From an uncultured Rhodospirillales bacterium (GTDB lineage: Bacteria; Pseudomonadota; Alphaproteobacteria; RF32; CAG-239), in the NCBI GenBank assembly GCA_902763185.1, contig CACWQT010000003.1, positions 62,001 to 126,000 on the forward strand: DNA of 64,000 nucleotides, in the 5' to 3' direction. Under the pieces are notes generated by a model. The model was not told the DNA's origin, did no database searches, and worked only from the letters and a program-made list of their open reading frames with translations. Positions 24,470 to 57,571 of this stretch are shown piece by piece. The number at the start of each line of letters is the position of its first letter. The first letter of the stretch is position 1. The translations under genes were made by a program, and so were the position numbers.

Positions 24470-24500
24470 AAAATCCCGTCTGAAAATAAGACGGGATTTT
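24470..24500 (-). terminator. Intrinsic terminator after the 1150-residue repeat protein
   Basis: AAAATCCCGTCT (24470-24481) and AGACGGGATTTT (24489-24500) form a perfect 12-pair stem with a seven-base loop. It lies 20 bases after the stop of the large minus-strand gene, and T residues follow on that strand. Confidence 0.93.
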
Positions 24501-24519: not shown

Positions 24520-27500
24520 CTATTTTGTCTGAACCCAATGTTGCAAATACGGATTTGTATTTGGATCTTTCATCAGAGCCTCTTCACGAGCTTTCTTTTT
24601 AGCCGCTTCCTTTGCTTTCTTTTTCGCTGCTTTTTGTTCAGCCTTTGTCAAAGATTTGGGCGCTTGATCTTGGCTCACATAAACACTGCTTGTATTGGAA
24701 GCGGCTTTATTACCGGCATCTAAAGCCTCGCCAACCGTGGCAGAGCCTGTATCTGTGATTCCGGTTATAGAGCCGTTGCTGGAAGTAGAAACATGACGCT
24801 TACTCACCTCAATACCCTTAATTTCAGTCATATTAACTTCTTTATAGTCATTAGCATAAACACCTAATCTTAATGCAGGTTGAGTGCGTGGTGCCATATA
24901 AACTTGTTCCAAATAAGGTGCATTCGGATTTGCAACAAAGCCACTACCACCTTGTTTGAAGGTTGGAACACCTTTTTCATCACACTCTTTACCAACTTTA
25001 TAAGCAGAATTGACTGTGTGGTTATTTGGATCGCCTTTAACATTATCAATAACACCATTGATATGAACAGCTTCCAACAATTCTCTGATAATAGGAGTTT
25101 CTTCAGCGCTAAAGGTATCTTTACAATCCTTAATTCCTTTAATAAAGTTCAACATTGACAAGACTTGCGGACGGAATTTTGCAAAATCACCATTAGGCTT
25201 AACGCTCCATTTCATAGAATATCTAAGGGCTAACATAAATTCGTCATAAGTTAATCCCTCAGCGGCACCGCCTTTAGCAGAGATTTCCGGATGTTGTTCA
25301 TATACAATTCTACCGGCGTCATAAACTTTAGAGCCGAAGTATTTTATAACTCTTTGACGAGCTTCTGCGGAAATACTCGAGTAATCAACACCACCACGTC
25401 CGGATTCTGGACCAAATGCTGCCGAAGTACCATCCGGAATACTATCTTTTTCAGGTCTTAAGTAATCAAAACCGATTGTATCAACCGGAAGTGCAAAAGT
25501 ATCGTTGCTGATATTGCTGGTCAAAGTTGAATTAGCTTGAGCATTTTTCACACTATCAGATGCAACAGCTGTGGTATCAGATTTGATTTCACCTGCAACA
25601 CCCAATTTAAGACCTTCATCTGAGGTCGCCGTAGAAGTTGTATAAGTTGTGGTAGCAGTAGATGATGTATTTGAATAAACCACACTTGAATTACTTGCGG
25701 CATTCTCACCGGTCTTAACAGCTTCACCTGTAGATGATTCACCAACTTTTGTAACGGCAGTTACATCACCTTTGTCATTAGTAGAAACATTTTGCTTGGT
25801 TAAGGTAGTTGCACCATTAGCCATATCACCAGAAGCATTGCCACCGGCAACACCTAATTGCAAATCAGGAGCAGCGGTAACAGTGGAAGTAGAATCAGTT
25901 TTTGCTTCAGCACCAGCAACACCCAAGTGAAAATCAGAAACATTCTCTGCATTGGTTTGAGTTTTGTTTTCGCTTACAAAAACAGTGCCTTTATTGTTGG
26001 CCGCATTACTACCGGCATCCAAAGCTTCATCAACTGTGGCAGGACCTTTGTTGGTAACAGCAGTTGTATTACCATCACTGGAAGTAGATGTGTTACGTTT
26101 TGCCAACTCAACTGATTTGATCTCTTTCTTGTTAACTTCTTCATAGTTACTAGGAGCAGTGCCAAGTTTCAAATCTTCCTCTTGAGTGTTATCATTGCCG
26201 TCAGGAATATTATTCTCTTCTTCTTTCTCTTCTTTTACTTCCTCTTTAGGAGTTTGAACAGAACCGAAAGATTTAACATCTTCACCGCAATCAGGTCTGT
26301 TGGCATACGGATTATTAACGATTCTGCCGTTCAGATCAACAGGAATAGCTGTATCAAACAACAATTGCATATCGCCTTTCATGCCTTCAATGTATTCAAA
26401 CTCTTGACCATTACAAGGACGATCTAAGGCGCTCATAACATTTTGTGCTGCAACATAGGCATCGCGCACAGTCCCATCTTGATTATATTGGAATCCCAGT
26501 TGTTGGCGAACTCTTCTTAATAAAGCATCAGGGGAAACTTGCGTAGCAACTGAATCACCTTTATGTTGGAATGTTGGAAGAGAATCTTGGATCAATGCCG
26601 CATTTCGATACATTCTGTCAAAACGTGCCGAATCAAGATGGTTGTAGTAATACAAAGTTGCTGCATAATCATCTTTACCTGTATGATACTTCATATCTGC
26701 ATTCCACTCATGCGGAACAGCCATATTCATGATAGAATCACGGTGAGCTTTTTTAGCTGCATCTGCTTTCGCTTTAGCATCTGCTTTGGCTTTATCTTCA
26801 GCAGCTTTCTTCTTTTGAGCTTCGGCAAAAGAGGCAGCTTTGGCTTTTTCTTCAGCCGCTTTCTTCTGCGCTTCAATTTCTTGTGGTGTTAAAGTTTTTG
26901 TATCTCCGGAATTAGAACAACTGGTTAAGAAGGTTGAAACAGTCATCAACCCAACCAAAACAGCAGCTTTGCCTCTCGGCTTCATTTGATGTAAAGTAAA
27001 CTCTGCACTGGCAACTTTTGTTTTTGCATAAATAGAAACTTTCTTTGCAAATCTATTCCATTTCGCTTGTGCTTTGTTGCAAACCTTTTCAACGCTCTCT
27101 TGAGAAATGCTGATTTTCTTTGTAAAATCCCAAGCACTTTTCATTTTTTGACGGAATGTAGCTAAAGGTTTTTCGGAATTTGTCTTGATTGCTTCAATAA
27201 CAGCTTCTTCGCGACCTTCATTAATTTCATCTAATCTCAAAGAAATAATGTGGGCCTTTGTTTGCTCTTTAACTAAATCCTCAACAGATTGCTCACTGAC
27301 ACCATTTTCTGCCATATTTTCAGCAACATTCGTTGCCGCAGCATAAGTCACACCTTGCAACGCCATTTCATTAGCAGCTTCTTGAGCTTCAGGAGCTACA
27401 TTATCAAAGGTAACAGGAGTTGCTTTTTGAGCTTGCTGAACTTCTTTGTCTTTGGCAACATTTTCAACAACTTGTTGAACATCTAATTGCTCAAAATAAG

Positions 27501-27972
27501 CCAAACCTTCTTCGCTGACTTTTGCTAAAGTTTCATCATCTGCATCATTAAAGGAAGTATTTGCTTCCGCAAACTTAATCAATATGGCGGCAAATTCCGG
27601 ATCTGTTGTATCTGCTTTCAAAAGTTCAATCGCTTGCTCAAACGTTCTTCTATCAACTTTGCCTTTGACGCATCCGCCGACAATATTATAAGCTTCTGTT
27701 AAATCTAAAGATTTTTTAACTTTAGGATTTTGTTTTGCTCTATCTTCTTGCAAAAGTTTTGCAAATTGAGCATCATCTCTTTGCACCATTTCTAAAGCGT
27801 GCTTATAAATAAGGATACGCTTCTCAGAGAAGTTTGAATGAATTTGTTTATATCCGCCGACAATAGCATAAGCGTCAGCTAAGGACATCTCTCTAATTTC
27901 CTTAAAGACTACAGCCTTCTTCTGAGTTTGAATTTTACCATTACTAAAACGTTTTTGACGAATTTTAGTCAC
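24520..27972 (-). CDS. Large repeat protein of unknown family with internal lipoprotein-like signal
   Basis: A 1150-residue protein that was not recognised. The start is GTG at 27972, with AGGAG eight bases upstream; the ATG at 28020 falls inside the promoter and can be excluded. Parts seen in order: a basic N-terminus; two related helical units of about 50 residues (about 28-80 and 90-140) sharing AYxIVGG; a Glu/Ala/Val-rich helical region; at about 330-352 a stretch that looks exactly like a lipoprotein signal (MKPRGK, hydrophobic core, LTSC with Cys352); a Lys/Ala/Glu-rich TolA-like helix; a Cys-containing mixed region; three Ser/Thr/Asn-rich repeats of about 70 residues, each headed LxLG; a helical domain between repeats 2 and 3; and a Lys/Ala-rich C-terminal helix. 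No ribosome site precedes the internal Met, so this reads as one chain, perhaps anchored at the internal segment. It is a single-gene unit with its own promoter and terminator. Confidence 0.85.
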   Translation of the reverse strand: MTKIRQKRFSNGKIQTQKKAVVFKEIREMSLADAYAIVGGYKQIHSNFSEKRILIYKHALEMVQRDDAQFAKLLQEDRAKQNPKVKKSLDLTEAYNIVGGCVKGKVDRRTFEQAIELLKADTTDPEFAAILIKFAEANTSFNDADDETLAKVSEEGLAYFEQLDVQQVVENVAKDKEVQQAQKATPVTFDNVAPEAQEAANEMALQGVTYAAATNVAENMAENGVSEQSVEDLVKEQTKAHIISLRLDEINEGREEAVIEAIKTNSEKPLATFRQKMKSAWDFTKKISISQESVEKVCNKAQAKWNRFAKKVSIYAKTKVASAEFTLHQMKPRGKAAVLVGLMTVSTFLTSCSNSGDTKTLTPQEIEAQKKAAEEKAKAASFAEAQKKKAAEDKAKADAKAKADAAKKAHRDSIMNMAVPHEWNADMKYHTGKDDYAATLYYYNHLDSARFDRMYRNAALIQDSLPTFQHKGDSVATQVSPDALLRRVRQQLGFQYNQDGTVRDAYVAAQNVMSALDRPCNGQEFEYIEGMKGDMQLLFDTAIPVDLNGRIVNNPYANRPDCGEDVKSFGSVQTPKEEVKEEKEEENNIPDGNDNTQEEDLKLGTAPSNYEEVNKKEIKSVELAKRNTSTSSDGNTTAVTNKGPATVDEALDAGSNAANNKGTVFVSENKTQTNAENVSDFHLGVAGAEAKTDSTSTVTAAPDLQLGVAGGNASGDMANGATTLTKQNVSTNDKGDVTAVTKVGESSTGEAVKTGENAASNSSVVYSNTSSTATTTYTTSTATSDEGLKLGVAGEIKSDTTAVASDSVKNAQANSTLTSNISNDTFALPVDTIGFDYLRPEKDSIPDGTSAAFGPESGRGGVDYSSISAEARQRVIKYFGSKVYDAGRIVYEQHPEISAKGGAAEGLTYDEFMLALRYSMKWSVKPNGDFAKFRPQVLSMLNFIKGIKDCKDTFSAEETPIIRELLEAVHINGVIDNVKGDPNNHTVNSAYKVGKECDEKGVPTFKQGGSGFVANPNAPYLEQVYMAPRTQPALRLGVYANDYKEVNMTEIKGIEVSKRHVSTSSNGSITGITDTGSATVGEALDAGNKAASNTSSVYVSQDQAPKSLTKAEQKAAKKKAKEAAKKKAREEALMKDPNTNPYLQHWVQTK
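24664..26172 (-). repeat. Three 70-residue coding repeats within the large unknown protein
   Basis: Copy 1 (25963-26172), copy 2 (about 25660-25863) and copy 3 (24664-24873) encode units starting LKLGTAPSNYEEVNKKEIK, LQLGVAGGN and LRLGVYANDYKEVNMTEIK. Each then holds an NxSTSSxG-like block, a GxxTVxEALDAGxxAA block and a TVFVS-like end. Copies 1 and 3 are closest although about 1.1 kb apart; copy 2 is more divergent. The LxLGVAG heading occurs twice more without a full unit. Confidence 0.8.
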
Positions 27973-28008: not shown

Positions 28009-28037
28009 AGTATATACCATTTTTTTATTAAATTCAA
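28009..28037 (-). promoter_or_regulatory. Sigma70-type promoter of the large repeat-protein gene
   Basis: On the minus strand TTGAAT (28037-28032) and TATACT (28014-28009) are separated by 17 bases, giving a transcription start near 28002 and a leader of about 30 bases to the GTG start. A TTGACA sequence lies further upstream but at an unsuitable distance. Confidence 0.65.
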
Positions 28038-29291: not shown

Positions 29292-30473
29292 GTGTTGGGA
29301 TTAAGTTTAAATACTTCAAAAATTTTAGCATACAACAAAACGGCTTTATTACCGGCACTATTGGTGTGCGCGTTTATTTTGTATTTTTTCTCTATTTCAG
29401 AGTTTTCTGATGAAACTTATCATACAATTCACTTTGCATTTTTAATTACGGCAGGTCTGGCGCTTGCTTTTGGCGTAATTTTGCGTGTTCCTTTTGTGGC
29501 AATATCCATTTCAGTCATTTATATCAGCTATTTAATTATAAATAGCCAGCGTTACAGCTATGGTGAAGATTATATATTTTCCGCAGGGTATAATATATGG
29601 AGTATTCTGTTACTGCCTAATTTGCTCATATCTAATTACTTTTTTGCCGAAGAAAAAAAACATAGGCATTGGAGTTGGTTTTATATTTTTATTTTGGCAC
29701 AAACTGCAATATTGGAAAGGTTTCAAACCCAAAGCATTGATGCTGATTCACCATTTTTTTATAAACATATCGGGGATCTTAATTATCCGGCTTTTTATAT
29801 CGGATTGCTGTGCTTGACAATTTTATTTGTAAAACAGATACTTAACGGCAAAATCTTAAATGCTGCTACATTTTTTGTCTCGGTTGCTGTATTTTTAAGC
29901 CTGTTTTATTCGGATAACTTATTCGCTTACAGTTTGTTCTTTTTAGCAGCCGCAGTTGTTGAGCTGTTGACGGTTCTTTATTACTCTTATTATGTGCAAT
30001 ATAAAGATGAAGAAATAGACATTCCCAATCTGACAGCATTTTATAAAGAGGCCGATAATCCGCGGAAATATCCGCTGAAATATAGCATAGCTTTAATGTA
30101 TATAGATGAATATGACCGTTTATTGAAACGATTCGGTGAAAGTAAAGCTCTGATTTTAAAAAAGATGTTTTTAGCGCGGATTAAAAAAGTCAAACCCAAT
30201 GTTTTAATCTATAACTACAAGCCGGATGCTTTGATTTTGGCATTTAAGAACTACAATGTGTCAGAATGCTTTGATTTTGCCGAGGATATTCGTCGCTTGA
30301 TAGCAAAGTCCGTTTTTGTGTTTAACGAAAATAATCATTTGCAATTAACCGTATCACAATGTGTTTCAGAAAAGAAACGGAGCGATGCCGGTGCCGCAAT
30401 GGTTTTAGAACGTGCTGAAGAAAATCTAAAAAAGGCCTGCAAATTTACGCATAATATAACGGTCAGAGCTTAA
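29292..30473 (+). CDS. Membrane protein with degenerate GGDEF-like domain
   Basis: A 393-residue protein with seven or eight N-terminal membrane segments (about 15-235) and a cytoplasmic domain of about 155 residues. That domain has the layout of a diguanylate cyclase: SIALMYIDEYDRLLKRFGE where the substrate-metal aspartates sit, then an NVLIYNYKPDALILAF segment at the place of RxGGDEFxxLL. The GGDEF signature itself is lost (YKPDA), so cyclic-di-GMP synthesis is not expected; a sensory or GTP-binding role is possible. The start is GTG at 29292, with an AAAGGTGG site upstream; a TTG one codon later is an alternative. The 3' end overlaps convergent lgt by four bases. Confidence 0.6.
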   Translation: MLGLSLNTSKILAYNKTALLPALLVCAFILYFFSISEFSDETYHTIHFAFLITAGLALAFGVILRVPFVAISISVIYISYLIINSQRYSYGEDYIFSAGYNIWSILLLPNLLISNYFFAEEKKHRHWSWFYIFILAQTAILERFQTQSIDADSPFFYKHIGDLNYPAFYIGLLCLTILFVKQILNGKILNAATFFVSVAVFLSLFYSDNLFAYSLFFLAAAVVELLTVLYYSYYVQYKDEEIDIPNLTAFYKEADNPRKYPLKYSIALMYIDEYDRLLKRFGESKALILKKMFLARIKKVKPNVLIYNYKPDALILAFKNYNVSECFDFAEDIRRLIAKSVFVFNENNHLQLTVSQCVSEKKRSDAGAAMVLERAEENLKKACKFTHNITVRA

Positions 30474-31261
30474 TTTTTCTTTCTAAGTGATTTAATAAGC
30501 ACATATCCGCCAACCAACAAAAATGGTATTGAAAGCAACTGCCCCAAAGTTACTTGTCCAAAGATAAAGCCGATTTGCTCGTCAGGCTCTCTGAAAAATT
30601 CCATACACAACCGTGATAGCGTATAAATGATTAAAAAGACCGCGGAAATAACACCATGATGGCTACGCACAAATTCCTTTTTCCATAATAGGTTCAAGAT
30701 AATAAACATTAACACACCTTCGCTTAAAGCTTCATAAATTTGCGAAGGATGCCGAGGCATGTAACCGCCGCTTGGGAACTTAACCGCCCACGGTACCGTG
30801 GTCACGCGTCCCCATAATTCATCATTGATGAAGTTAGTCAGCCTGCCTAAGAATATGCCGATAGGCACATACAAAGCAACAATGTCTGTAATTTTTAAAA
30901 ATGGGAACATATATTTCTTTGCGAAATAATAAAGAGCCAAAATAACACCGGCAATCCCTCCGTGAAAAGACATCCCCCCATGCCAAACCGCCAAAATCTC
31001 TGCCGGATGATGCCAAAAATACGTTTTGCCATAAAACAAAACGTAGCCAAGCCGGCCGCCCAAAATAATTCCCAATGTGGTATAAAAGACCAAGTCATCA
31101 AGTTGGGCAGAAGTAAGCCCTAATTTATATTTATCAATATTGCGTTTGGTCAAAAACCAAGCTGAAAGAATCCCAATGAGATATGCAAGGGCATACCAAC
31201 GTAATTGAAAAGGTCCAATGGCAAAAGCAACCGGAGATATATTGGGAAAATCAATAAACAT
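30470..31261 (-). CDS. lgt: Prolipoprotein diacylglyceryl transferase
   Basis: A 263-residue inner-membrane enzyme that attaches diacylglycerol from phosphatidylglycerol to the lipobox Cys of prolipoproteins. It has seven membrane segments and the family motifs WHGGMSFHGGIAG and the Lgt signature GRLTNFINDELWGR with its essential Arg and Asn. The ATG at 31261 has GGAG six bases upstream; an ATG four codons earlier lacks a ribosome site. The lipoproteins encoded in this window (the TolC type at 8.1 kb, LptE, and the protein at 32.5 kb) are natural substrates. It overlaps the GGDEF-like gene by four bases tail to tail. Confidence 0.96.
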   Translation of the reverse strand: MFIDFPNISPVAFAIGPFQLRWYALAYLIGILSAWFLTKRNIDKYKLGLTSAQLDDLVFYTTLGIILGGRLGYVLFYGKTYFWHHPAEILAVWHGGMSFHGGIAGVILALYYFAKKYMFPFLKITDIVALYVPIGIFLGRLTNFINDELWGRVTTVPWAVKFPSGGYMPRHPSQIYEALSEGVLMFIILNLLWKKEFVRSHHGVISAVFLIIYTLSRLCMEFFREPDEQIGFIFGQVTLGQLLSIPFLLVGGYVLIKSLRKKN

Positions 31262-31439
31262 AAAACGCTCCATTACATCATTCTAATTTCTTAAAGCTAA
31301 CTTAATAAAAAAATATAATCCACACAAAAAAATATAAAAATCCGAAGATTTTGAACAAGTATTTGAAATAAAATAATTTACAAAAGTGCAAAAAGTTACT
31401 TTTTGGTTAAAAAAGTGGAAAACTGGATATTCTGATTGT

Positions 31440-32539: not shown

Positions 32540-33502
32540 ATGAAAAAAGTTTTAAGTATCGTTGCATGCAGTGCCTTAGCAGCCTGTTCCTGCAGTGAAA
32601 ATCAGTGGGAAGCGGTAGATGTCGTAGATTACGAAGAACCGATTTATGAAGAGCAGGCCAAAGCTCCGGTAATTCAAGAATCGGAGGCAACAGTTCGTGA
32701 GGTTCGCCCATCCCCTGTATATGTATCATCCGCACCGCAAGTTGTTTATGATGCACCTTATACCGAAGTGGCAACGCCATGCGTTCAAGCAACACCGTGC
32801 TGCCAAGCCGTATATTATCAACCGCAACCATGCTGTGGGTATCAGGTAGCTACACAACCGGCACCTCAACCAAAGGTTACCAAAAGCCAAAAGATTATAA
32901 CCACTACAACTACTTATAAAGATTGCGGTGGTCAACCTTGCGATCCTGTAACAACCACTCATGAAGAAGTTGTGCCGGCAAATGTGAGCTATACCGGCTA
33001 TACTCAACCGACGGCTCAAGTTGCACCGTATGAATCAGGCTATCTTGATGTAACGGTTGAATCTAATCCGTATAATTCACAAGTTGTAGATGTTCGTCCG
33101 GCAAGTCCGAAAGTAGATGGCAAAATTGCTGCCAAGTATTCTCCGGAAGCCTACAATGTTGTAGCCAGACGTGCTACCAACCGTATGTTGCAAGATACAT
33201 CTTCTCTTTATGGTAATGGTCGCACCAAGAGAATTTTCTTAAAAGATACAAGACTCTTAAGTTCTGATTTACCGTATGGTAGCCAACGCTTAAGAGGTAT
33301 CACTAAAGAAATCATCAGCGGATCTGAAACCTATGATGTTATCAATAACGCAACAGATGCAGATTACATCTTAGATTCTGCCGCTGACTGGTATGTATCA
33401 GGTTCTGCCGCTCCGGCACTTCAATACAAGCTCACCATGTTTGATAAAAATGGTAGAAAAGTAAACGAGTGGGTAGAGATTATCAGACAATTACAGGATT
33501 AA
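32540..33502 (+). CDS. Cys- and Pro-rich lipoprotein with LpoB/CsgG-like C-terminal domain
   Basis: A 320-residue lipoprotein. The signal peptide ends in LAAC (Cys16), followed by CSCSEN. Residues about 60-190 are Pro/Thr/Tyr-rich with paired cysteines (TPCVQATPCCQ, QPCCGYQ, CGGQPC) and look unstructured or cross-linked. The C-terminal 120 residues form a compact domain with RIFLKDTRLL, TYDVINNATDADYIL and YKLTMFDKNGRKVNEW. That pattern recalls lipoproteins of the LpoB/CsgG fold, but this is a weak assignment. The next gene, eight bases downstream, encodes a related domain without the Cys-rich part, so the two are probably co-transcribed and may work together. The ATG has TAGGAG upstream. Confidence 0.65.
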   Translation: MKKVLSIVACSALAACSCSENQWEAVDVVDYEEPIYEEQAKAPVIQESEATVREVRPSPVYVSSAPQVVYDAPYTEVATPCVQATPCCQAVYYQPQPCCGYQVATQPAPQPKVTKSQKIITTTTTYKDCGGQPCDPVTTTHEEVVPANVSYTGYTQPTAQVAPYESGYLDVTVESNPYNSQVVDVRPASPKVDGKIAAKYSPEAYNVVARRATNRMLQDTSSLYGNGRTKRIFLKDTRLLSSDLPYGSQRLRGITKEIISGSETYDVINNATDADYILDSAADWYVSGSAAPALQYKLTMFDKNGRKVNEWVEIIRQLQD

Positions 33503-37728: not shown

Positions 37729-40700
37729 TTATTTAACACCTAAAAACATTCTTTTGCCGACATCACCGCTAAAGGCGGTTTCTTGGTCATTGGCAGCAAA
37801 GACATATTGTCTTAAAAGAATAGGCGCATCCGCATCATTCGTTTTCCCTTTAGCAAGGTTTTTGCCTGTCGCACCATAAAAAGATAATTCGACGTTATTT
37901 GCGGCATTGAAAACATACTTTTGAGGGGCAATGGAAAGAGGAGGTGTGGTATCTTTGCCGCGGAGCATATTTTTGCCGACATGACCTATAAACGGAATGT
38001 CCTTGGTTTCTTGATTAAAGACATATTGGGTTTTAGGCTCGGTCTTAGTCGTGGTGTCTTGGGCTACCGCTTGCGGTTTATTCAACTTTTCTAAAGAAGC
38101 ATTAACCACTCTCGAATTGGGCAATGTATTTTGAACGGTATGTTCCGATAAAACTTCGGTTTCTTTAACGTTTATGACTTTATCAAATCCGGATTTTTTG
38201 GCATTATCCAATGAAACACTGGCAAAAGTTTTGATCTCATCGGTTTTGACCATGTCCATTGCAACCACCGGATTAACTTTAAGAGAAGCGTCTATGTTAT
38301 CAAAACTCTTATCATTTTCATCAGGCAAAATAGGCGTAATATTATTGATTGTTTTAGCAATGTCTTCGGTTATGATTTTAGCTTGTTCAGAAACGGTTAA
38401 ATGTGTATCTGCCGGCTGAATTGATAAAGCGGCAACATTGTTGTCAATATCACAATGCAAAGCCTGATCAATAGCAGAGGATACAGTATTATTGTTTTCG
38501 GTTAATACCAGCGCTTGTGCATCAGGTAAAGGTGTCGCATCGGCTAAAGCAAAATCTTTTTCAACGACATCAACAGAGGTTGCTTTCTCGTTTTGCAGAG
38601 TATTTGCAGTTTGTTGAGGTAACGTAAACCCACCAGCACCTAAATCAGCTAATTGCACAAAGCTCTCCAAATCATTCTGCGACAAGTTTTCAGGAGATTT
38701 GGATTCTGTTTGCTTTTGATGAGTATCATGAGCTACGGGTTCATCAATTTTTTTTTTATCCTCTGATGTTTCAGAAGCCTTATTTTCTTCAACTGCTTCA
38801 GTCTTTTTATCATCAGTAACAGCATCGGTTTTTGTTTCTGCTTGAGTCTCAGTTTCAGTTTTAGCGGTAGTCTTTTCTCCCGGTTGAGATTTAGCTTCTT
38901 CCTTATTGCCCTCAGCAGGTGTTTCTTTCTTTTCTTTAATAATTTTCACCGTTGGCTGAGTGATATCAATATCATGAGGATTCTTTGGTGGGTAAACTAT
39001 GTATTGCTCATAATCCATTATATCGATATTCAAAGTCGCTTTGAACATATCAAAACTTGAGATAATATCGTTATTCATATTTTCTACGTATAACGAAAGC
39101 GTTTGCAAGGCTTGGTCTGCAATTTCGTTGTTTTCTTTCATATCAGCCGCACTTACGGTATCAATGATGACAAGATAATTATCGCGTATCTTGCTATGCA
39201 CTTCAGTGATTTTCTCCATATCATCAGCAACTTTTTTAACTGAGGCAGCAAGCTTATCTGTATCCTCAGAGGATATGCCGTTTTCTTGCTTAACTAGAGG
39301 TTTAATCTTGTCCATATAAACATCACTCAAGTTTTTGTAATAAGTGGAGTTGTTTTGCGCAACATTATATATCCAAGCAATTTTATTAAAGGTATCATCA
39401 AAAACATACTTGCTGTCAATTACAAAATTCTCTTCCAAAGCCTTTGGAATTGCTTGTAGCTTAGTTCTTTCCAATGCCAAATCATTTTCAATTTTAGCAA
39501 GTTTTTCCTCATTAACATCACCGTGCAATATCTCGTCCATATTACTTAAGGTTTTTTCGGAATCTTCTAAAGCTTTAATATTGGCGTCATATACAGAAAG
39601 CACATCTTTGTTATTGGTTACAGGCTTAAAGCGAATAACATCAAGAGACATTTGCGTTACTTCTTTTTGAAGTGCGGTAACAGCATTTTGAATAGCGGTT
39701 GTCCGAGCTATCAACCTGTTCTTAAGGGCGATACTTTCTTGATTTTTCACTTTATCTGCCATTTTTTTCACTTTATTGATACGTTCACTGCTTTCGCTCA
39801 AATCAACTTTAGCCTTAGGATTATCCAAATGTCCGTCAAAGGTAAATTTCAAGACATCGGAGAAACTGGCATTATGATATACCCCGTAAAATACAGCATC
39901 AAAGAGCCAGTTGTTAAAGTTTAAGTTGAGGTTCATATCAAGATTGATAACAGGCGATTCCCAAATTGTATTTTTTGTAACAAGTAAGCCCTTTGTTATG
40001 TCATAAGTACCATGAATTTTATCAAATGAACTTTGTCCGCTGGCAAGACTTTGTAAAACCGCGTCTTCAAATCCTTCAGTATTATCTCTTTGCTCAAGTT
40101 CAAATTTTATTAGAGCCAAGTCCCAACCTCTAAAAGCAGTGTTAGTGGCTTCAAAATCACCCTTTGAAGTTAAGTTTTCAAAAAAGTCATTTGGAGAGGT
40201 CGCCAAAGAACTGAAACTTCCCGAAGCGGTAATATTACCGCTGGTTAACCCATAAAGAGAACCCTTTAGGTTAGGAAATCTTAAACCGTTAACGGCATAA
40301 GTACCTTCAATTTTAGGCAAATCATTACTATTCATATCAAATTTTAACTCAACAGAGGCATTGCCGCTTAATGCTCTAAATTGAGAAACATGCAATACAC
40401 CATTTTCCAAAACAGTAGCAAGATTTGCCTCATGATAATTAGCTCCGTTGAAAACTAAAGTATCCGCGCTAAGATTGCCATGGAAATTATATTTCTTAAA
40501 TAGAGCATAATCAATTTTTTCGTCATTAAGTAACGGCTTACTTAAAAATGTGCCTTTATTTGCTTGTTCTGTTGATTTAAAGATACTCTTTTTGCTTAGA
40601 TTAAAAAGACGATCGGCATCAAATTTATCAAAATGAAGATTTGCCTCAGCTGTCGGCGTTGTCTTAATATCATGAACGGCCAAATCGCCTTTAATGGCAT

Positions 40701-42870
40701 TGGCACTTAAATAGGCGTTCAATTCAGTTATTGCAAAATTGTCGGCTGTTCCGGAAATCTTTCCGGCTAAAGAAAATGGAGTAACCGGCATATCTGGTTC
40801 ATAATTAAAGTTCAATGCTTTTACAAATTTAGTAAAGTTATTGGATTTAAGCTCTAATTCACCATTAACTTTCATGCTTTTTGACGCATCGCTAACTTGT
40901 CCTGCATAAGAAAATTCAATATCACCGAATTTTTGCAGGGAACTCAAATTAAAGTCATCAAAACTACCGCTTAACGCACCTTGAGAAACAAATAGTTTCC
41001 GCTTAAATAAGGGGATATCAGCAGGATTAAGCCCAAGTGCTGTGGCAAACTGAGGGAAATTCTCAGTTTTAACGTCATAAGATAAGTCGCTAAATAGAGG
41101 ATTGCTATAAACATTGTCCGCATTAAATTGTAAATTAAGATTACCGCCTGCAATATTAGCGATTGAAAGTTTTTTAATATTAAAGGCTTGGTCATAAGAT
41201 TTAAATTCCAATATCATATCTTCTAACGGAATATTGTTATAAACCGCACCTTTTAAGGCTATTGAAGCATCAACGTTAAGCTCGTGATTCCAAGGAATAA
41301 GGCTCATTTGATGAATAAACTTATCCTTAAAGCTCAAATTTTGACTGTTTTGCGGTAACAATTGAACATATTTATCAAATAAAATTTTAGATCCTTCAAT
41401 TACAGCCAAAACAAAAGTTTTTCCTTCATTGAGAACGAAACCGATATCTCCGCTCAAAACAGTAGAGTCAATGTTAACTTGTGGGGCAGAAATTTTGAGC
41501 TGGTTCATGTCACCGCTCAAAGCTATATCTGCTTTAGCATGCTTAAAGATAGCTTTTTTATTTTCATTATTGGCAAGTTTAGCTAAATCAATTCCGAAGA
41601 CGGAAATAAATTGCCGCAAATCATCGGTTTCAAAGATTTGATTAATCTGAAAAGCGAGATTTTCATTTAAATTAACCGCACCGATAAATTTGAGATTTGT
41701 ATTTCCCGGCATATTAAGTCCCATACGGGTAATTGTAAGCAGACCGTTCTGTAAAGTTAAACCTGTATTAAAATTAAGCACTTCCGCCCCATTATAAAGT
41801 GCATGCGCGGCCTTAATATCAATAATCCCGTTATATGTTGCCAAATTGCTATCTGCAAATTTTTTGCCTTGGCGCATACTTTGCAAAATATCCTTGCCGA
41901 TTAACTCAAATATCCCCAAGTCAAGTTGCGTCATTTCCAGATTAAGCGCAAATTCCTTGTTATTGGGGAAATTTTTAAGCATTAAGTCGCCGCTGCCGGC
42001 AGCCTTATCTCCGTATTTGATGACAAAATTATTTAATTTAGCAAAAGTTTTATCGTATTCAAATTTAAAGGAGGTATCTAAAGACACATTATACTGATTG
42101 CCAATAAAATTTTCACCAAATAAGGCCATCATAATATCGGCAAAATGTGCGGTCTTAAATGTTAAAGTTCCTTTAGATTGTTTATCAAAAACGCCATCAA
42201 GAGCAGCCTTACTTCCTGTTGGTGCATTTTCAAAAGTCATATTAACATGATATCCCTGACTTTTAGCAATAGCACCTTGGAATTTAATTTCGTTATTATT
42301 ATAAATCAAATTACCGTTTGTTTTATAAGGCCCCTTAATGGTTGATGCATTAACGGTTGCCGATATGTTAGGAAGCATAAGCTCTTTATTATCTTGCAGA
42401 TTTTTGTAATTTAATATTGAATTATTTAATCTCACATTATTAAAAGAAACTTCAACATTTCCCGTTTTACTGGCACCTCCGGCATTAATATTGTCCCAAT
42501 TTGAAACACCTTTTTCGTTAATAAGAACATTAACAGTGGCATTCGTTAAAGTCATAGAGTTAATCACAAATTTTTGTTGAAACATTGGTAAAAGCTCAAC
42601 ATTAGCCGATATTTCCTTAACAGTCACAAGCGGATCGCGAGGTGCGTTGCTCTTAAAAAATCTGACTGCATTTGCGGAAATTTTAGGAGAGGGTAATAAA
42701 TCTACCTTTAAATCACCTTCAATAGATGCGTTAAGCCCTGTGATTTGCGCAAAGCGTTCGGAAACAACGCTTTTGTGTTGATTCCAGTCCATCATATAAA
42801 TATATCCGCCCACACCAGCAATGGCTAAGATAATAAAGAGGACAACACCGATTACAATTTTTTTCAGCAC
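37729..42870 (-). CDS. Giant AsmA-family protein with coiled coil and C-terminal repeats
   Basis: A 1713-residue envelope protein. One N-terminal membrane helix (about 4-26) anchors it in the inner membrane. Residues about 27-1080 are a long AsmA-like beta-rich region (SERFAQITGLNASIEGDLKV, LLPSPKISANAVRF, TVKEISANVELLPMFQQKF) with the AsmA C-terminal domain (about 880-1060). Then come a helical coiled-coil region (about 1090-1300), a low-complexity Glu/Lys/Thr-rich stretch (about 1310-1400), an Asp/Ala-rich segment, and three tandem repeats at the extreme C-terminus. AsmA-type proteins are thought to bridge the periplasm and carry phospholipids. The added C-terminal 650 residues are not typical of the family. 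It is a single gene divergent from cdd. Confidence 0.88.
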   Translation of the reverse strand: MLKKIVIGVVLFIILAIAGVGGYIYMMDWNQHKSVVSERFAQITGLNASIEGDLKVDLLPSPKISANAVRFFKSNAPRDPLVTVKEISANVELLPMFQQKFVINSMTLTNATVNVLINEKGVSNWDNINAGGASKTGNVEVSFNNVRLNNSILNYKNLQDNKELMLPNISATVNASTIKGPYKTNGNLIYNNNEIKFQGAIAKSQGYHVNMTFENAPTGSKAALDGVFDKQSKGTLTFKTAHFADIMMALFGENFIGNQYNVSLDTSFKFEYDKTFAKLNNFVIKYGDKAAGSGDLMLKNFPNNKEFALNLEMTQLDLGIFELIGKDILQSMRQGKKFADSNLATYNGIIDIKAAHALYNGAEVLNFNTGLTLQNGLLTITRMGLNMPGNTNLKFIGAVNLNENLAFQINQIFETDDLRQFISVFGIDLAKLANNENKKAIFKHAKADIALSGDMNQLKISAPQVNIDSTVLSGDIGFVLNEGKTFVLAVIEGSKILFDKYVQLLPQNSQNLSFKDKFIHQMSLIPWNHELNVDASIALKGAVYNNIPLEDMILEFKSYDQAFNIKKLSIANIAGGNLNLQFNADNVYSNPLFSDLSYDVKTENFPQFATALGLNPADIPLFKRKLFVSQGALSGSFDDFNLSSLQKFGDIEFSYAGQVSDASKSMKVNGELELKSNNFTKFVKALNFNYEPDMPVTPFSLAGKISGTADNFAITELNAYLSANAIKGDLAVHDIKTTPTAEANLHFDKFDADRLFNLSKKSIFKSTEQANKGTFLSKPLLNDEKIDYALFKKYNFHGNLSADTLVFNGANYHEANLATVLENGVLHVSQFRALSGNASVELKFDMNSNDLPKIEGTYAVNGLRFPNLKGSLYGLTSGNITASGSFSSLATSPNDFFENLTSKGDFEATNTAFRGWDLALIKFELEQRDNTEGFEDAVLQSLASGQSSFDKIHGTYDITKGLLVTKNTIWESPVINLDMNLNLNFNNWLFDAVFYGVYHNASFSDVLKFTFDGHLDNPKAKVDLSESSERINKVKKMADKVKNQESIALKNRLIARTTAIQNAVTALQKEVTQMSLDVIRFKPVTNNKDVLSVYDANIKALEDSEKTLSNMDEILHGDVNEEKLAKIENDLALERTKLQAIPKALEENFVIDSKYVFDDTFNKIAWIYNVAQNNSTYYKNLSDVYMDKIKPLVKQENGISSEDTDKLAASVKKVADDMEKITEVHSKIRDNYLVIIDTVSAADMKENNEIADQALQTLSLYVENMNNDIISSFDMFKATLNIDIMDYEQYIVYPPKNPHDIDITQPTVKIIKEKKETPAEGNKEEAKSQPGEKTTAKTETETQAETKTDAVTDDKKTEAVEENKASETSEDKKKIDEPVAHDTHQKQTESKSPENLSQNDLESFVQLADLGAGGFTLPQQTANTLQNEKATSVDVVEKDFALADATPLPDAQALVLTENNNTVSSAIDQALHCDIDNNVAALSIQPADTHLTVSEQAKIITEDIAKTINNITPILPDENDKSFDNIDASLKVNPVVAMDMVKTDEIKTFASVSLDNAKKSGFDKVINVKETEVLSEHTVQNTLPNSRVVNASLEKLNKPQAVAQDTTTKTEPKTQYVFNQETKDIPFIGHVGKNMLRGKDTTPPLSIAPQKYVFNAANNVELSFYGATGKNLAKGKTNDADAPILLRQYVFAANDQETAFSGDVGKRMFLGVK
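37732..38028 (-). repeat. Three tandem coding repeats at the AsmA-type C-terminus
   Basis: Residues 1615-1713 consist of three units of 35, 38 and 26 residues. Each starts QYVF or KYVF, continues to an aromatic-x-G (FIG, FYG, FSG), then VGKNML, TGKNLA or VGKRMF, and finally RGK, KGK or LGVK. The last unit ends the protein. The DNA copies have diverged, so this is an old protein-level repeat. Confidence 0.85.
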
Positions 42871-51936: not shown

Positions 51937-52009
51937 AAAAAAATGCCGGAATCTTAACTTATTTTTTAAACATTTGGCTCTAAAATGACAGAAAATAGAG
52001 CAGGTGAAA

Positions 52010-55000
52010 ATGAAACTGTTTGGTAAATATATGAAAATAAATAAAAAAATATACACCTTGTTAGCAGCATTAATGTTGTTACCAATAGCTGATGTTTACG
52101 CCGCCGGCGGAAAAATTACCGCCGCACAGGCATTTTATACGCTTGCACATAATAATAATGTTCAAAAAATCAATGAATTACAGAATCGCGGTTATTCTTT
52201 AGAAAGCACAGATGGCAGAGGATATAATCCTGTCTGTAAAGCAATTATGAATCAAGACAGGAATGCCTATCGGATATTAGTATCTCAAGGTGCTAATCGT
52301 TCTCCGAATTGCTTAAAACGCATACCGGAAGATACATATCGGCGTTTCTTTGGGATAAGACCAAATCAAACTGCCGTTGCTGCATCAGAGGATGGTACAG
52401 CATCTAAATTGAAGGATATTCCGACATGGGTGGCGGCCAGTGCTTTAACCGCTGGCGCCGTGGCAACAGCATATGCGTTGCGCGGTACAACCGGTAAAGG
52501 AGGTGGTTCACCTGGTCCTGGACCTATACCACCAACGCCGACAACCTGCCCGAATGGTACTTATGATGTCAAAACCAAAAAATGTATATGTAATGAGGGG
52601 TATTATCACTATGGAGATGATACAGCTTGTTATTTACCGGTTGCAAATTGTGAAAGTCAAACCAAGAGTATTTGTAATGCGTGCGTAACCGGATACATAC
52701 TGTTTAATAACGTTTGCTATATCAAAATACCTAATTGTGCTGTTCAATCAGCAGATAAATGTTCTCAGTGTGAGACAGGGTATGGCCTACATGGCGGAGA
52801 TGGATCGGCTTGCTATCATGATATAGATAACTGCGTAACTCAAGAATTAAATAAGTGCACACAATGTGTTGCAGGGTATGATACTTATGGTGATCCTTCC
52901 AAAATGCAATGTTACAAAAAGATAGAACATTGCTTAAATCAAGTTCAAACAGCATGTATGCAATGTGAAGCAGGATATGATACCTATGGCGATATCACGG
53001 CATCACATTGTTATCCTAGCAATCCTTGTACCGCGTATGCCAATACAGTTCCAACCATTATAGATGGCGAGGTTGAGTGTATTTGTAATATTAATAAAGG
53101 ATATGCCGGTGATAAAGAAAATTGCCAACTTGCAGAAGAAGGAGAGTATGAAGAAGGAGACGGCAATCGCGAAAAATGGGATAATCTCAACGAACTATAT
53201 TGCAATTCACATGGCAAATATATGGGAAATGGCATTTGTCAATGTTATACTAGTCGCGGTTATGCCGGTAAAAACAGTAATTGTAAGGTAGATGAATGTT
53301 GCACATCATGCATTGAACCGACGTATATTCAAGATCAAAATAACGGATTATGTTACATAAATTTGTATTGTTCGGATCATAAAGTGCAAAGAGGTAATAC
53401 TTGTGTGTGTGAAACGGGATATATTGCATATAACGACGGTTGTTATATAGATTTGAAATGCGAACAAGAATCAATTCATACATATCAGCAAGGCAATCAG
53501 TGTGTATGTAAGCCAAATTATGATGAAAATTGCGAGCAGTGCTTAGAAGGTTATGAGATGGACGCTCGTGGAAATTGTAATGCAATAGAGCCTGTATGTC
53601 CTGAAAATTGGACAGGTAAAGAATGTAATATATGTCCGGTGGAATTTCTATTATCAAGTGATAGCTTACATTGCGGACCGGAATGCGCCATAAATCGTGC
53701 TCCAAGAAGCGAAAATGATGAAAATTGTAGTCTTTGCGGTGCAGGATATGACAAAGATAGAAACGGATTGTGCATTGTTACAGAGTGCTCTTCAGGAAGA
53801 GAAGGATATGTCAAGGATGACGAAGGAAATTGTGTTTGTGACGAAGCTAATGGATATGCCATGACAAGATTAGGCATCTGTGAGAAGAAGGGGCAACCGA
53901 TAGTTGGCGTTTCAGATAGGAATATCAATAACGATACATTTACAATAACACATAATGGTGCGGATGACCCTATTTTCCGTGATGTCTATGGTATGAAACC
54001 GGTAGAATCAGAAGATGCCGAAGGCAATAAAACATATTATGAAAATGTATATAATGCCTTAACATCACCAAGCGACGCCACAGCAGAAGCAGAAAGCCAA
54101 ACCGCTACAATAAGAATAAATAATATGAACACGGGTGCTAACACGGTATATGGTATTTATCAACCCAATGCGATATATAATTCTGCCGTTATTAATAGAA
54201 CCATTAAAGATGCAACAGCTACCGGTAATATTATCATAAATGATACACACACATTATCGTATATATATGGCTTGTATAACACGGGTGAAACGGAAGATGA
54301 GGTATCAAAAGATATTTATAATGCTTTTGCATTTGGCTCTGGCGAAGGCAGTGCCGCATCACCGACTAATAATCAGGCAATAGGTAATATTACCGTAACA
54401 AAAGATGAAGAGAGTAAAGGTCGTATTGTTGGTATTCATGGTGTAAGTAATATTTTTAATGCATATGCCAATACCACAGATGGTGCTGCGGCAAATGCTG
54501 ATGCTCAAGGTTCGATAGTATTGACTAATAAAGGTGAGGGAGATGTAATCGGTATTGAGGGAACAAGCAATAAGGCAAAAATAAATAATGCCTTAACCTA
54601 TATGGATTCTGCAGTTTCAAAAACGATTTCCGAAGGAAACATAAAAATTGCCGGAACAGATGATGTATATGGAATATCAGCCAAAGGAACAGTAGCTAAT
54701 AGTGAAACACAATTTAGCAAAAGTTTCATATTACAAGAAGAATTTCGTTCCACCGGTGCCATAGATGCAACAACCGAAAAAACAACGAGCAAGGGCTATG
54801 GTATATATGTAACAGGGGAAAATGTAGCCGCCGATGTATATAATGCTTTAGGTTATCAAAGCACAGGTATTATTACGGTAACCAATAACAATGGCGGAAG
54901 TGCATATGGTATATGGAACGGTATAGCAACCTATATCGGGGATGAAGGGCAAAAATACTATAATAATACTTACAATGCTTTTCGGTCATCTGCAAAATAT

Positions 55001-57571
55001 GGTGGGGATAATAGCACGGCCAAAGGCACAATCAATGTAAATATCAAAGGAGAAGGAATAGGCATACAAAATGCCATTGGTTCTTACGCCGCCGGCGATA
55101 TATTTAATGCGTATGCCAATTCCGGATCAGATGTAAAATTAAGTGTAATCGGCAATATTAATCTCAATGATGAGAGCACTAATTCAGATATCGTGCTAAA
55201 AGGCTTAGAAGGTGACGGAGCGACGGTTGCAAATGCCTATGCGACAGGCCAAGGCCAAAATACAGAAACAAATGTTCTTGGTAATATAAATGTAACGGCA
55301 AATAACAGAAAAATAGGTGGTATCGCCGCTGGTATGTATAGCACTGGAGCAGTAGAGCAAAACGCTAAAGTTATTAATGCAGGACTAATCAACGATAAAA
55401 GCACTGTTGAAGGCAATATTCTGGTGCAGTCAACAGGTCAGCGACCACTGAGCACCATGTATGGTATGTATGTCACTAATTATGACGTAAACGGCGGCAA
55501 CTCTGAAACCGCACAACCCAAAGATATATATAATGCATATTACGATAATCCCGATAATGTGTCATCAGGTAAAGTGACCGGAACAATCAGAGTTTATGCA
55601 CCTAATGCCAGCTTAGGTTCAACAGCGGAATATTATGGTATCTTTACTAATGGTGGTAGAGCATATAATGTTTATAGCACCAATAGCGCCGCCAATGTCA
55701 AGGGCACTATAGAAGTAGACATCAACGGCAGTAACAATACGACGACCGCCGCAGGTATGAAGGGTGTAAACGGGGCATATTTATATAACACCGGCAATGG
55801 TGCAAATTCTCATATCAGTGTTACAACCTCAAGAGGAAGCAGTAATGCTTACGGTATGATGGGTGAAAACAGCTATATAGCAAATAGTGCCCTCATTGAT
55901 GTAAAGAGCCAAAGAGCCAATGCTTATGGTTTATATGTCCATAACGGCACGATTATAAATGAAAGCACCGGTGTCTTAAACGTAAATGGTTCAACCGGAA
56001 GTTATGGTATTTATGCCGTAAGTGATAATGCCATGGATACCTACGTTCAAAATGCTGGAACGATTAATCTGACGGGCGCTTCTAAAAATGTCGGTATTTT
56101 CGCCTCCGGATCCAATGCTAAAGTTAAAAACACTGGTCAAATCATCATCAATGGCACAGAGAACACTGATATCTGCACCGATGGACAGTGCGGAAACAAT
56201 GTTGCCATTATGTTGACAGATGGTGCCCAGTTAATTAACAACGGTTCTATCACCAGTGACAGCAATTTGGACTTATCGGCTATGGGGGGCACGGTATCTA
56301 TTGCTGAAGGTGGTAGCTTTAAGGCGGCCGGATTTATCAGCGGTGATTTAGATGTAGAACAAGACACCATCATGAATAATTTTGATAAAGAGATTGTGCT
56401 AGAAAACGCCCTAGATGCTGAAGATGTCAGCCAGACTAATGTTAATATAAAATCTTATCTTTATAATACCGGCATCAAGCCCAATAGCACAGGTTCAAAT
56501 GATATCGTGCTGGAAATGAAAGACTTCTCGGAAGTAACATCAAATACAAGTGAATCCGCATATTTGGAACAAAACTATAATGCTGAGAAGAACGCCGCTT
56601 TATTTAACAGCTTAAAAGCCGCACCAACGGCAACTGCTGCCCAACTTGTAGAAGCCAAAGCCATGGGATCTTCGTTTATCCCCAATATCCCTGAGGAAGA
56701 ATTAAAAATCCAGCGTAGCCTTAACCGCACTATGACCGATGAATTATTTAAGGAGGGTGGTGATGTGCGTAAGTTTATCGGTGTCGATGCGATGAAAGTC
56801 GGACGCTCTGACAGTGGCTCACTTACCGGCTATGATATTAATTCGCAAAGCTCTTATGCACTTTATGATAAGAAGATGAATAATCGTTATCGCTTAGGTT
56901 TAGGTATGAGCTTTACCCACACTGATACTGATTACAATGACGATTCGCGCCGCAAGAATTTCAATGTTCAAGCCTATGTCCCATTAACTTATAAGTTAGG
57001 CAATCATTTAACTGTCGTATCAATGGCCGAGTTAGGTTATTCCGATGGTGATTACACAAGAAAGAGCCTAAATCAATCTTTTAAGGCGGACACCTCAGCC
57101 ATAACTTATGGATTATTAAACGAAATCCGCTATAAATCAAATCTCGGATCGGTTAATGTCACACCGTTTGTCGGCTTAAATGCCCTCGGTTGGTATCAGG
57201 ATTCCATAAACGAGGGGCATGATGCTCAAGCACTGCATATTTCGGCAACTAACGTCTTTTCTTTAGAAAGTGCTTTAGGAATTTACGTTGATAAAGACAT
57301 TGAGCTTAACGAAGATAATCGCTTAAATATCGCTTTAGGTGCCGGATATTATCATGAGTTTGCCGATCCGTATCGCGGCTTTGACACGCATCACAGTGAC
57401 AGTATCGGTAAGTATAGGTTGAAGAATAAGATTCACTCTGATGACCGCGGCTTAATCTCTGCCAAACTCAAATATGATTACAAAGCATTTTCAATCTATG
57501 CTGAACTCCTACAATATTTAGAAGAAGAACACCCGACCGAATTTGACGGTGGCCTGCAATATCGTTTCTAA
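52010..57571 (+). CDS. Large modular autotransporter with ankyrin-like, Cys-rich and beta-solenoid regions
   Basis: An 1853-residue type V secretion protein. Parts in order: signal peptide (about 1-32, ending DVYA/AGG); an ankyrin-like segment (about 35-100, LQNRGYSLESTDGRGYNPVCKA in two parts and RILVSQGAN); a hydrophobic stretch (about 143-160) and a Gly/Pro linker; a Cys-rich region (about 178-625) with at least four units of the form NCxxQxxxxCxxCxxGY; a long Gly/Asn/Thr-rich passenger (about 640-1500) with about eleven YNA-type turns; and a C-terminal autotransporter barrel (about 1580-1853) ending LQYRF. The barrel exports the passenger to the cell surface. Start: ATG at 52010 with AGG five bases upstream; GTG at 52004 is an alternative. 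A surface adhesin is likely, but no ligand can be named. Confidence 0.85.
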   Translation: MKLFGKYMKINKKIYTLLAALMLLPIADVYAAGGKITAAQAFYTLAHNNNVQKINELQNRGYSLESTDGRGYNPVCKAIMNQDRNAYRILVSQGANRSPNCLKRIPEDTYRRFFGIRPNQTAVAASEDGTASKLKDIPTWVAASALTAGAVATAYALRGTTGKGGGSPGPGPIPPTPTTCPNGTYDVKTKKCICNEGYYHYGDDTACYLPVANCESQTKSICNACVTGYILFNNVCYIKIPNCAVQSADKCSQCETGYGLHGGDGSACYHDIDNCVTQELNKCTQCVAGYDTYGDPSKMQCYKKIEHCLNQVQTACMQCEAGYDTYGDITASHCYPSNPCTAYANTVPTIIDGEVECICNINKGYAGDKENCQLAEEGEYEEGDGNREKWDNLNELYCNSHGKYMGNGICQCYTSRGYAGKNSNCKVDECCTSCIEPTYIQDQNNGLCYINLYCSDHKVQRGNTCVCETGYIAYNDGCYIDLKCEQESIHTYQQGNQCVCKPNYDENCEQCLEGYEMDARGNCNAIEPVCPENWTGKECNICPVEFLLSSDSLHCGPECAINRAPRSENDENCSLCGAGYDKDRNGLCIVTECSSGREGYVKDDEGNCVCDEANGYAMTRLGICEKKGQPIVGVSDRNINNDTFTITHNGADDPIFRDVYGMKPVESEDAEGNKTYYENVYNALTSPSDATAEAESQTATIRINNMNTGANTVYGIYQPNAIYNSAVINRTIKDATATGNIIINDTHTLSYIYGLYNTGETEDEVSKDIYNAFAFGSGEGSAASPTNNQAIGNITVTKDEESKGRIVGIHGVSNIFNAYANTTDGAAANADAQGSIVLTNKGEGDVIGIEGTSNKAKINNALTYMDSAVSKTISEGNIKIAGTDDVYGISAKGTVANSETQFSKSFILQEEFRSTGAIDATTEKTTSKGYGIYVTGENVAADVYNALGYQSTGIITVTNNNGGSAYGIWNGIATYIGDEGQKYYNNTYNAFRSSAKYGGDNSTAKGTINVNIKGEGIGIQNAIGSYAAGDIFNAYANSGSDVKLSVIGNINLNDESTNSDIVLKGLEGDGATVANAYATGQGQNTETNVLGNINVTANNRKIGGIAAGMYSTGAVEQNAKVINAGLINDKSTVEGNILVQSTGQRPLSTMYGMYVTNYDVNGGNSETAQPKDIYNAYYDNPDNVSSGKVTGTIRVYAPNASLGSTAEYYGIFTNGGRAYNVYSTNSAANVKGTIEVDINGSNNTTTAAGMKGVNGAYLYNTGNGANSHISVTTSRGSSNAYGMMGENSYIANSALIDVKSQRANAYGLYVHNGTIINESTGVLNVNGSTGSYGIYAVSDNAMDTYVQNAGTINLTGASKNVGIFASGSNAKVKNTGQIIINGTENTDICTDGQCGNNVAIMLTDGAQLINNGSITSDSNLDLSAMGGTVSIAEGGSFKAAGFISGDLDVEQDTIMNNFDKEIVLENALDAEDVSQTNVNIKSYLYNTGIKPNSTGSNDIVLEMKDFSEVTSNTSESAYLEQNYNAEKNAALFNSLKAAPTATAAQLVEAKAMGSSFIPNIPEEELKIQRSLNRTMTDELFKEGGDVRKFIGVDAMKVGRSDSGSLTGYDINSQSSYALYDKKMNNRYRLGLGMSFTHTDTDYNDDSRRKNFNVQAYVPLTYKLGNHLTVVSMAELGYSDGDYTRKSLNQSFKADTSAITYGLLNEIRYKSNLGSVNVTPFVGLNALGWYQDSINEGHDAQALHISATNVFSLESALGIYVDKDIELNEDNRLNIALGAGYYHEFADPYRGFDTHHSDSIGKYRLKNKIHSDDRGLISAKLKYDYKAFSIYAELLQYLEEEHPTEFDGGLQYRF

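Follow-up and report, generated by a model that had tools for sequence, protein, structure and literature searches.

How can a lipoprotein-type signal come to lie deep inside a long protein, and what kind of protein carries it there? The question is raised by one gene in the 64,000-nucleotide stretch of DNA analysed here (the window), whose product a sequence-only reading had described as an 1150-residue protein of unknown family with such a signal and three long repeats. The frame is uninterrupted, as that reading held, and runs on the minus strand, which it had left unstated; the GTG start is at 27972 and the stop ends at 24520 (Table 1). The sequence 5' of the start is ACAGGAGAAAAAAG, and AGGAG is the ribosome-site-like sequence of the 1150-codon frame. 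The one promoter and one terminator said to enclose the frame were found as a promoter-like site and a 12-bp stem flanking the gene, both consensus matches only. The gene is present in one copy in its own genome and, in the genus, is located between queA and gap.

Table 1. Features of the gene and its flanks, in positions of the window (aa, residues of the 1150-residue protein).
Feature	Position	Strand	Basis
Promoter-like TTGAAT-17-TATACT	28009..28037	-	Consensus match only
Whole gene, 1150 aa, GTG start	24520..27972	-	ORF call and single-ORF orthologues at the same locus
N-terminal helical unit 1, aa 28-85, AYAIVGG; additional to the single copy of relatives	27718..27891	-	Repeat alignment and profile
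N-terminal helical unit 2, aa 88-140, AYNIVGG; counterpart of relatives' DLxTAYEIAGGY	27553..27711	-	Alignments and profile
Conserved helical region, predicted cytoplasmic, aa 141-329	26986..27552	-	Family alignments; a relative's N-half is modelled as helical
Internal signal segment M330-S351: n-region rich in Lys/Arg, K335 and C352 flanking 16 uncharged residues	26920..26985	-	Matched by pattern to relatives' last hydrophobic segment
Cys352, putative lipidation site; counterpart Cys in 13/15 genus members	26917..26919	-	Segment comparison and PS51257 test
Lys/Ala/Glu helix, aa 365-409	26746..26880	-	Composition; seen in this species only
Possible degenerate first two-Cys domain, aa 416-575, Cys520/Cys562; tentative	26248..26727	-	Alignment A5; not significant pairwise or by profile
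Long repeat 1, aa 600-681	25930..26175	-	Repeat alignment
Long repeat 2, aa 704-798	25579..25863	-	Repeat alignment
C-terminal two-Cys domain, aa 855-1010; Cys950, Cys997	24943..25410	-	Relatives-only profile, i-E 2.6e-13; alignments
Long repeat 3, aa 1033-1107	24652..24876	-	Repeat alignment
Lys/Ala C-terminal tail, aa 1104-1150, ending NPYLQHWVQTK	24523..24663	-	Alignment
Intrinsic terminator-like 12-bp stem and T tract	24470..24500	-	Consensus match only

The signal is present in the translation as described, running from M330 through KPRGK and a hydrophobic core to LTSC352, and thus occupies aa 330-352 instead of the N-terminus as in ordinary lipoproteins. Thirteen of 15 full-length or near-full-length genus members have Lys or Arg, 16 uncharged residues (18 in one) and then a Cys, ending their last hydrophobic segment. 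Automatic alignments with the 1150-residue protein place its segment elsewhere, the first of them opposite a different region, and because that first alignment misplaced the lipobox segment we anchored the comparison by pattern. Among the 13 Cys-bearing members the Cys is the sole invariant column from -20 to +7, in a set chosen for the Cys and aligned on it, with the register set by the pattern; given that selection, the meaningful figures are the 13 of 15 and the test against the PROSITE PS51257 lipobox rule. Cys352 passes this rule, and so does the site in 11 of the 15 genus members; across 30 proteins, which hold 193 Cys, it passes at 13, of which 11 are at this site. In G009 and G011 the residue at -1 is Asn, which the rule does not allow, and a partial sixteenth genus member reads YILVSC. 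In other genera there is a hydrophobic segment near this place and the Cys is absent, so lipidation cannot be a family-wide function; some of them apparently have an Ala-x-Ala-like sequence after the segment. The segment comparison and the pattern test thus mark the putative internal signal as conserved within the genus and not as an accident of one protein. Elsewhere in the window, orthologues of the gene at 32540-33502 start with ordinary N-terminal lipoprotein-like signals (e.g. MKRIISVITCTMLAACSC), in contrast to the internal signal.

What precedes the signal is best understood from the relatives. The two related AYxIVGG units that had been noticed by eye are real, with a pairwise score of 46 against a shuffle maximum of 35 and profile i-E values of 9e-12 and 2e-10; we considered AYxIVGG as a double-glycine (bacteriocin-type) leader and dropped it on inspection, the GG not being retained outside the genus. 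In most relatives the N-terminal helical region is followed in family alignments by a long hydrophobic hairpin bearing a YxAYxAAxxWVxP-like signature, then by a second, Ala/Gly-rich hydrophobic stretch and finally by the last hydrophobic segment. Both hairpins are absent from the 1150-residue protein, G012 and G001, and all three keep the Cys; a tree built from neighbouring genes would fit loss of the pair in one event, without resolving it. Because the lipobox segment of most relatives is the last of several hydrophobic segments, the 1150-residue protein looks like a larger multi-segment membrane architecture minus two hairpins, not like a lipoprotein with a gained N-terminus.

The distribution of charge gives this architecture a probable orientation. 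The 30 residues before the segment carry a charge of +3 to +7, the charge after it is 0 to -5 in 12 of 13 members and +4 in one, and the loops between the relatives' hairpins are rich in Lys and Arg in the alignment. From this pattern we infer that the N-half and the loops lie inside and the C-half outside, a charge bias that agrees with the type II-like topology with a periplasmic C-half offered by the sequence-only reading. The genome encodes LspA (PF01252, E 8e-38), and the ORF at 30470-31273 we take to be Lgt, from knowledge of such sequences and not by profile.

We suggest, with a probability of about 0.45, that this is an inner-membrane protein whose N-half stays inside while its C-half lies in the periplasm, probably lipidated and possibly cut at Cys352 in this genus, and that it belongs to a vertically inherited family of undescribed large envelope proteins, confined to its lineage as far as we searched. 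The N-terminal 335 residues would be cytoplasmic, and in most relatives the N-half would also hold the two hydrophobic hairpins, each with both its ends at the cytoplasmic face. The aa 336-351 segment would insert N-in/C-out and export the remaining ~800 residues; because it ends in a lipobox in this genus, the likeliest course would be diacylation of Cys352 by Lgt. Cleavage by LspA would release the C-half as a tethered lipoprotein, one chain giving two products at different locations. This full scheme, a lineage-restricted “two-in-one” in which one chain would comprise both a cytoplasmic or multi-hairpin membrane part and a lipoprotein, to be split by LspA at an internal lipobox, is a more tentative proposal. 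Established lipoprotein signals are N-terminal, and the open literature that we searched yielded no precedent for LspA acting on an internal one.

A serious rival, which we regard as quite possible, is an uncleaved type II membrane protein whose segment at aa 336-351 serves as a permanent signal anchor and whose Cys is structural or incidental, the whole chain reaching from the cytoplasm into the periplasm. Retention of the hydrophobic segment without the Cys in other genera would make the anchor role the ancestral constant, and within the genus G004 and G006 also lack the Cys. Against this stand the invariance of the Cys in an otherwise variable segment of 13 members, the concentration of the lipobox pattern at this site, and a peak hydropathy of the segment in the 1150-residue protein of only 1.39, low for a stable span.

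Membrane export with probable lipidation at Cys352 has partial parallels in known systems. The segment shares with the lipobox signals of Lgt/LspA-processed bacterial lipoproteins, as reviewed (PMC8689077), a positive n-region, a short hydrophobic core, a lipobox-like end in Cys and a disordered-looking stretch thereafter, but comes 200-470 residues into the chain, preceded by a cytoplasmic region and in most cases by two hairpins. In its proposed working the protein would resemble TolA and TonB, with a predicted N-in anchor, a Lys/Ala- or Pro/Glu-rich periplasmic stretch and a C-terminal domain; it differs in its long cytoplasmic N-half, in its C-terminal domain and in having the Lys/Ala helix in one species. 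That helix is real (37 of 45 residues at aa 365-409 are Lys, Ala or Glu, among 30 family members in this species only), whereas its description as TolA-like found no TolA profile match: no member matched a TolA or TonB profile in Pfam, and profile matches were limited to the low-complexity linker. One member matched an NCBIfam TonB model (1.9e-5), and TonB in the PDB matched weakly (E 0.36) over the linker region. The cytochrome b/c1 precursor FbcH of Bradyrhizobium is likewise a single chain with an internal signal, which is cut to give two products, as is proposed here; the FbcH signal is of the signal peptidase I type, and the two proteins are unrelated in sequence and function. Use of the internal lipobox would mean that lipoprotein processing is not restricted to N-terminal signals, that prediction tools considering the N-terminus only miss such proteins and that LspA inhibitors have an unexpected target class; it would also offer a handle on the envelope of little-studied gut Alphaproteobacteria.

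Beyond the Lys/Ala/Glu helix the C-half is built of repeats and a two-Cys domain. The three long repeats align well above shuffled sequences (scores of 189, 108 and 105, the shuffles reaching at most 58, 66 and 70, respectively); the LxLG signature for which they had been named occurs five times (aa 600, 681, 704, 788 and 1033). The two Cys of the domain are 34-47 residues apart in the family, and across genera one is invariant and the other nearly so in the alignment. In the genus the domain is usually duplicated (aligned with each other, domains 1 and 2 of one relative score 136, shuffle maximum 68); in the 1150-residue protein the second copy is clear, and the first is suggested only by a Cys pair and its position. 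A disulphide in this domain is plausible; the genome encodes four DsbA-like proteins, and a search of it for DsbB and VKOR found neither. About half of the genus members share the NPxL ending. The long, disordered-looking low-complexity linkers, the compact two-Cys domain and the fast evolution of the linker suggest that the C-half may be a periplasmic or outer-membrane-facing tether or scaffold, but this is the least certain step, a doubtful guess from architecture.

The family was detectable only with an alignment of relatives: a contig scan using the 1150-residue protein alone found none. A profile of the N-half (A4) matched in 82 of 152 family genomes, spread over 12 of the 16 genera, and a C-domain profile in 64 of 136, its matches falling in the same large frames. 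At least 12 genera, of the 16 in a single family of gut Alphaproteobacteria, thus have homologues, and the named records are MAGs of gut Alphaproteobacteria. In a 289-genome sample of the class, A4 matched in two genomes only, both from this same family. A4 misses the source genome and the other hairpin-less members because their hairpins are absent. Reading the queA surroundings in ten A4-negative genomes (genera g2, g6, g7, g8, g11, g12 and g13) revealed no related gene there within the stretch covered; some of them carry the C-domain elsewhere. Searches of Pfam, NCBIfam, PHROGs and PADLOC gave no match beyond scattered ones in one or two members, and the PDB searched by sequence gave none of weight, so the claim of an unknown family holds against these collections; the family, with no annotated domain, is a lineage marker for these little-studied bacteria. 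Foldseek against the PDB likewise gave no clear homology, with nothing at E <= 0.001 for a model of the C-domain or of a relative's N-half (best E 0.56); the two AlphaFold models, largely helical, reach only modest confidence (mean pLDDT of 64.8 and 62.9, respectively), which makes this negative weak evidence. A phage, plasmid or viral origin was considered and rejected, no homologue being found in the phages, plasmids and viral contigs searched (the plasmid query being a relative).

These searches also bear on whether the protein is delivered elsewhere, for example as a secreted or pore-forming effector whose hairpins would insert into membranes. Hairpins rich in Ala and Gly, long helices and a rapidly evolving linker would suit such a protein, and alpha-pore-forming proteins are among the non-significant Foldseek matches; we nevertheless find it improbable, as no Foldseek match is significant, no secretion signal was recognised, the gene is single-copy at a housekeeping locus, and three species lack the hairpins altogether.

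Still less probable is that the C-half is additionally made alone by initiation at Met330, where an in-frame ATG directly precedes a canonical-looking lipoprotein signal. Met330 has no Shine-Dalgarno sequence before it (GAGTTTACTTTACATCAA), in agreement with the sequence-only reading, and among start candidates in the 48 codons examined in 15 members none has a ribosome-site match and most members have no ATG there. We rejected an internal translation start on this absence of a conserved start with a ribosome site and, the signal being internal, do not class the protein as an ordinary lipoprotein.

The gene is also one intact unit. An orthologue adjoins queA in 13 other species of the genus, each a single frame of 930-1182 aa, with gap and pgk beyond it wherever the contig extends that far (one of the 13, G014, reaches its contig end); gap follows the frame in a fourteenth (G006), and a contig end truncates it in a fifteenth (G002). 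Identity of genus orthologues to the 1150-residue protein is only about 14-25%, against 91-98% for gap and 80-86% for queA where compared. Whole-gene dN/dS is 0.12-0.23 in close pairs, versus 0.02-0.07 for queA, lgt and the gene between those two; within the gene it is 0.28-0.59 in the linker, plus one value made unreliable by a tiny dS, and 0.02-0.14 in the C-terminal domain. The gene thus evolves much faster than its neighbours, yet is under purifying selection. That two genes were joined by a sequencing error, a frameshift or a recent fusion is excluded by the conservation of single-frame orthologues at one locus in these 13 other species, together with single ORFs in about 80 genomes of the family, and the long single orthologues also count against the earlier suggestion that a cytoplasmic module was fused to an ancestral lipoprotein.

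No consistent split of the halves into separate genes was seen among the draft MAGs compared: the N-half profile lies nearly always inside one large frame in the about 80 family genomes that carry it. Short half-only frames are few, mostly situated at the ends of contigs. In G171 the N-half stands alone in a 396-aa frame (L184:4297-5484), about 650 bases from the end of its contig; in G161 a frame of 727 aa matches the N-half weakly; and G122, a draft MAG, has a 272-aa frame with part of the C-domain and no membrane segment (L179:3145-3960), a possible stand-alone copy. Further ones are cut off where their contigs stop. A 1387-aa frame adjoining the homologue in G026 (L087:9470-13633) has a weak N-half profile match (E 4.2e-4) and may be a tandem paralogue. 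Two other large proteins are encoded in the window, one of 1855 aa with an autotransporter beta-domain (52004-57571) and one of 1713 aa of the AsmA family (37729-42870).
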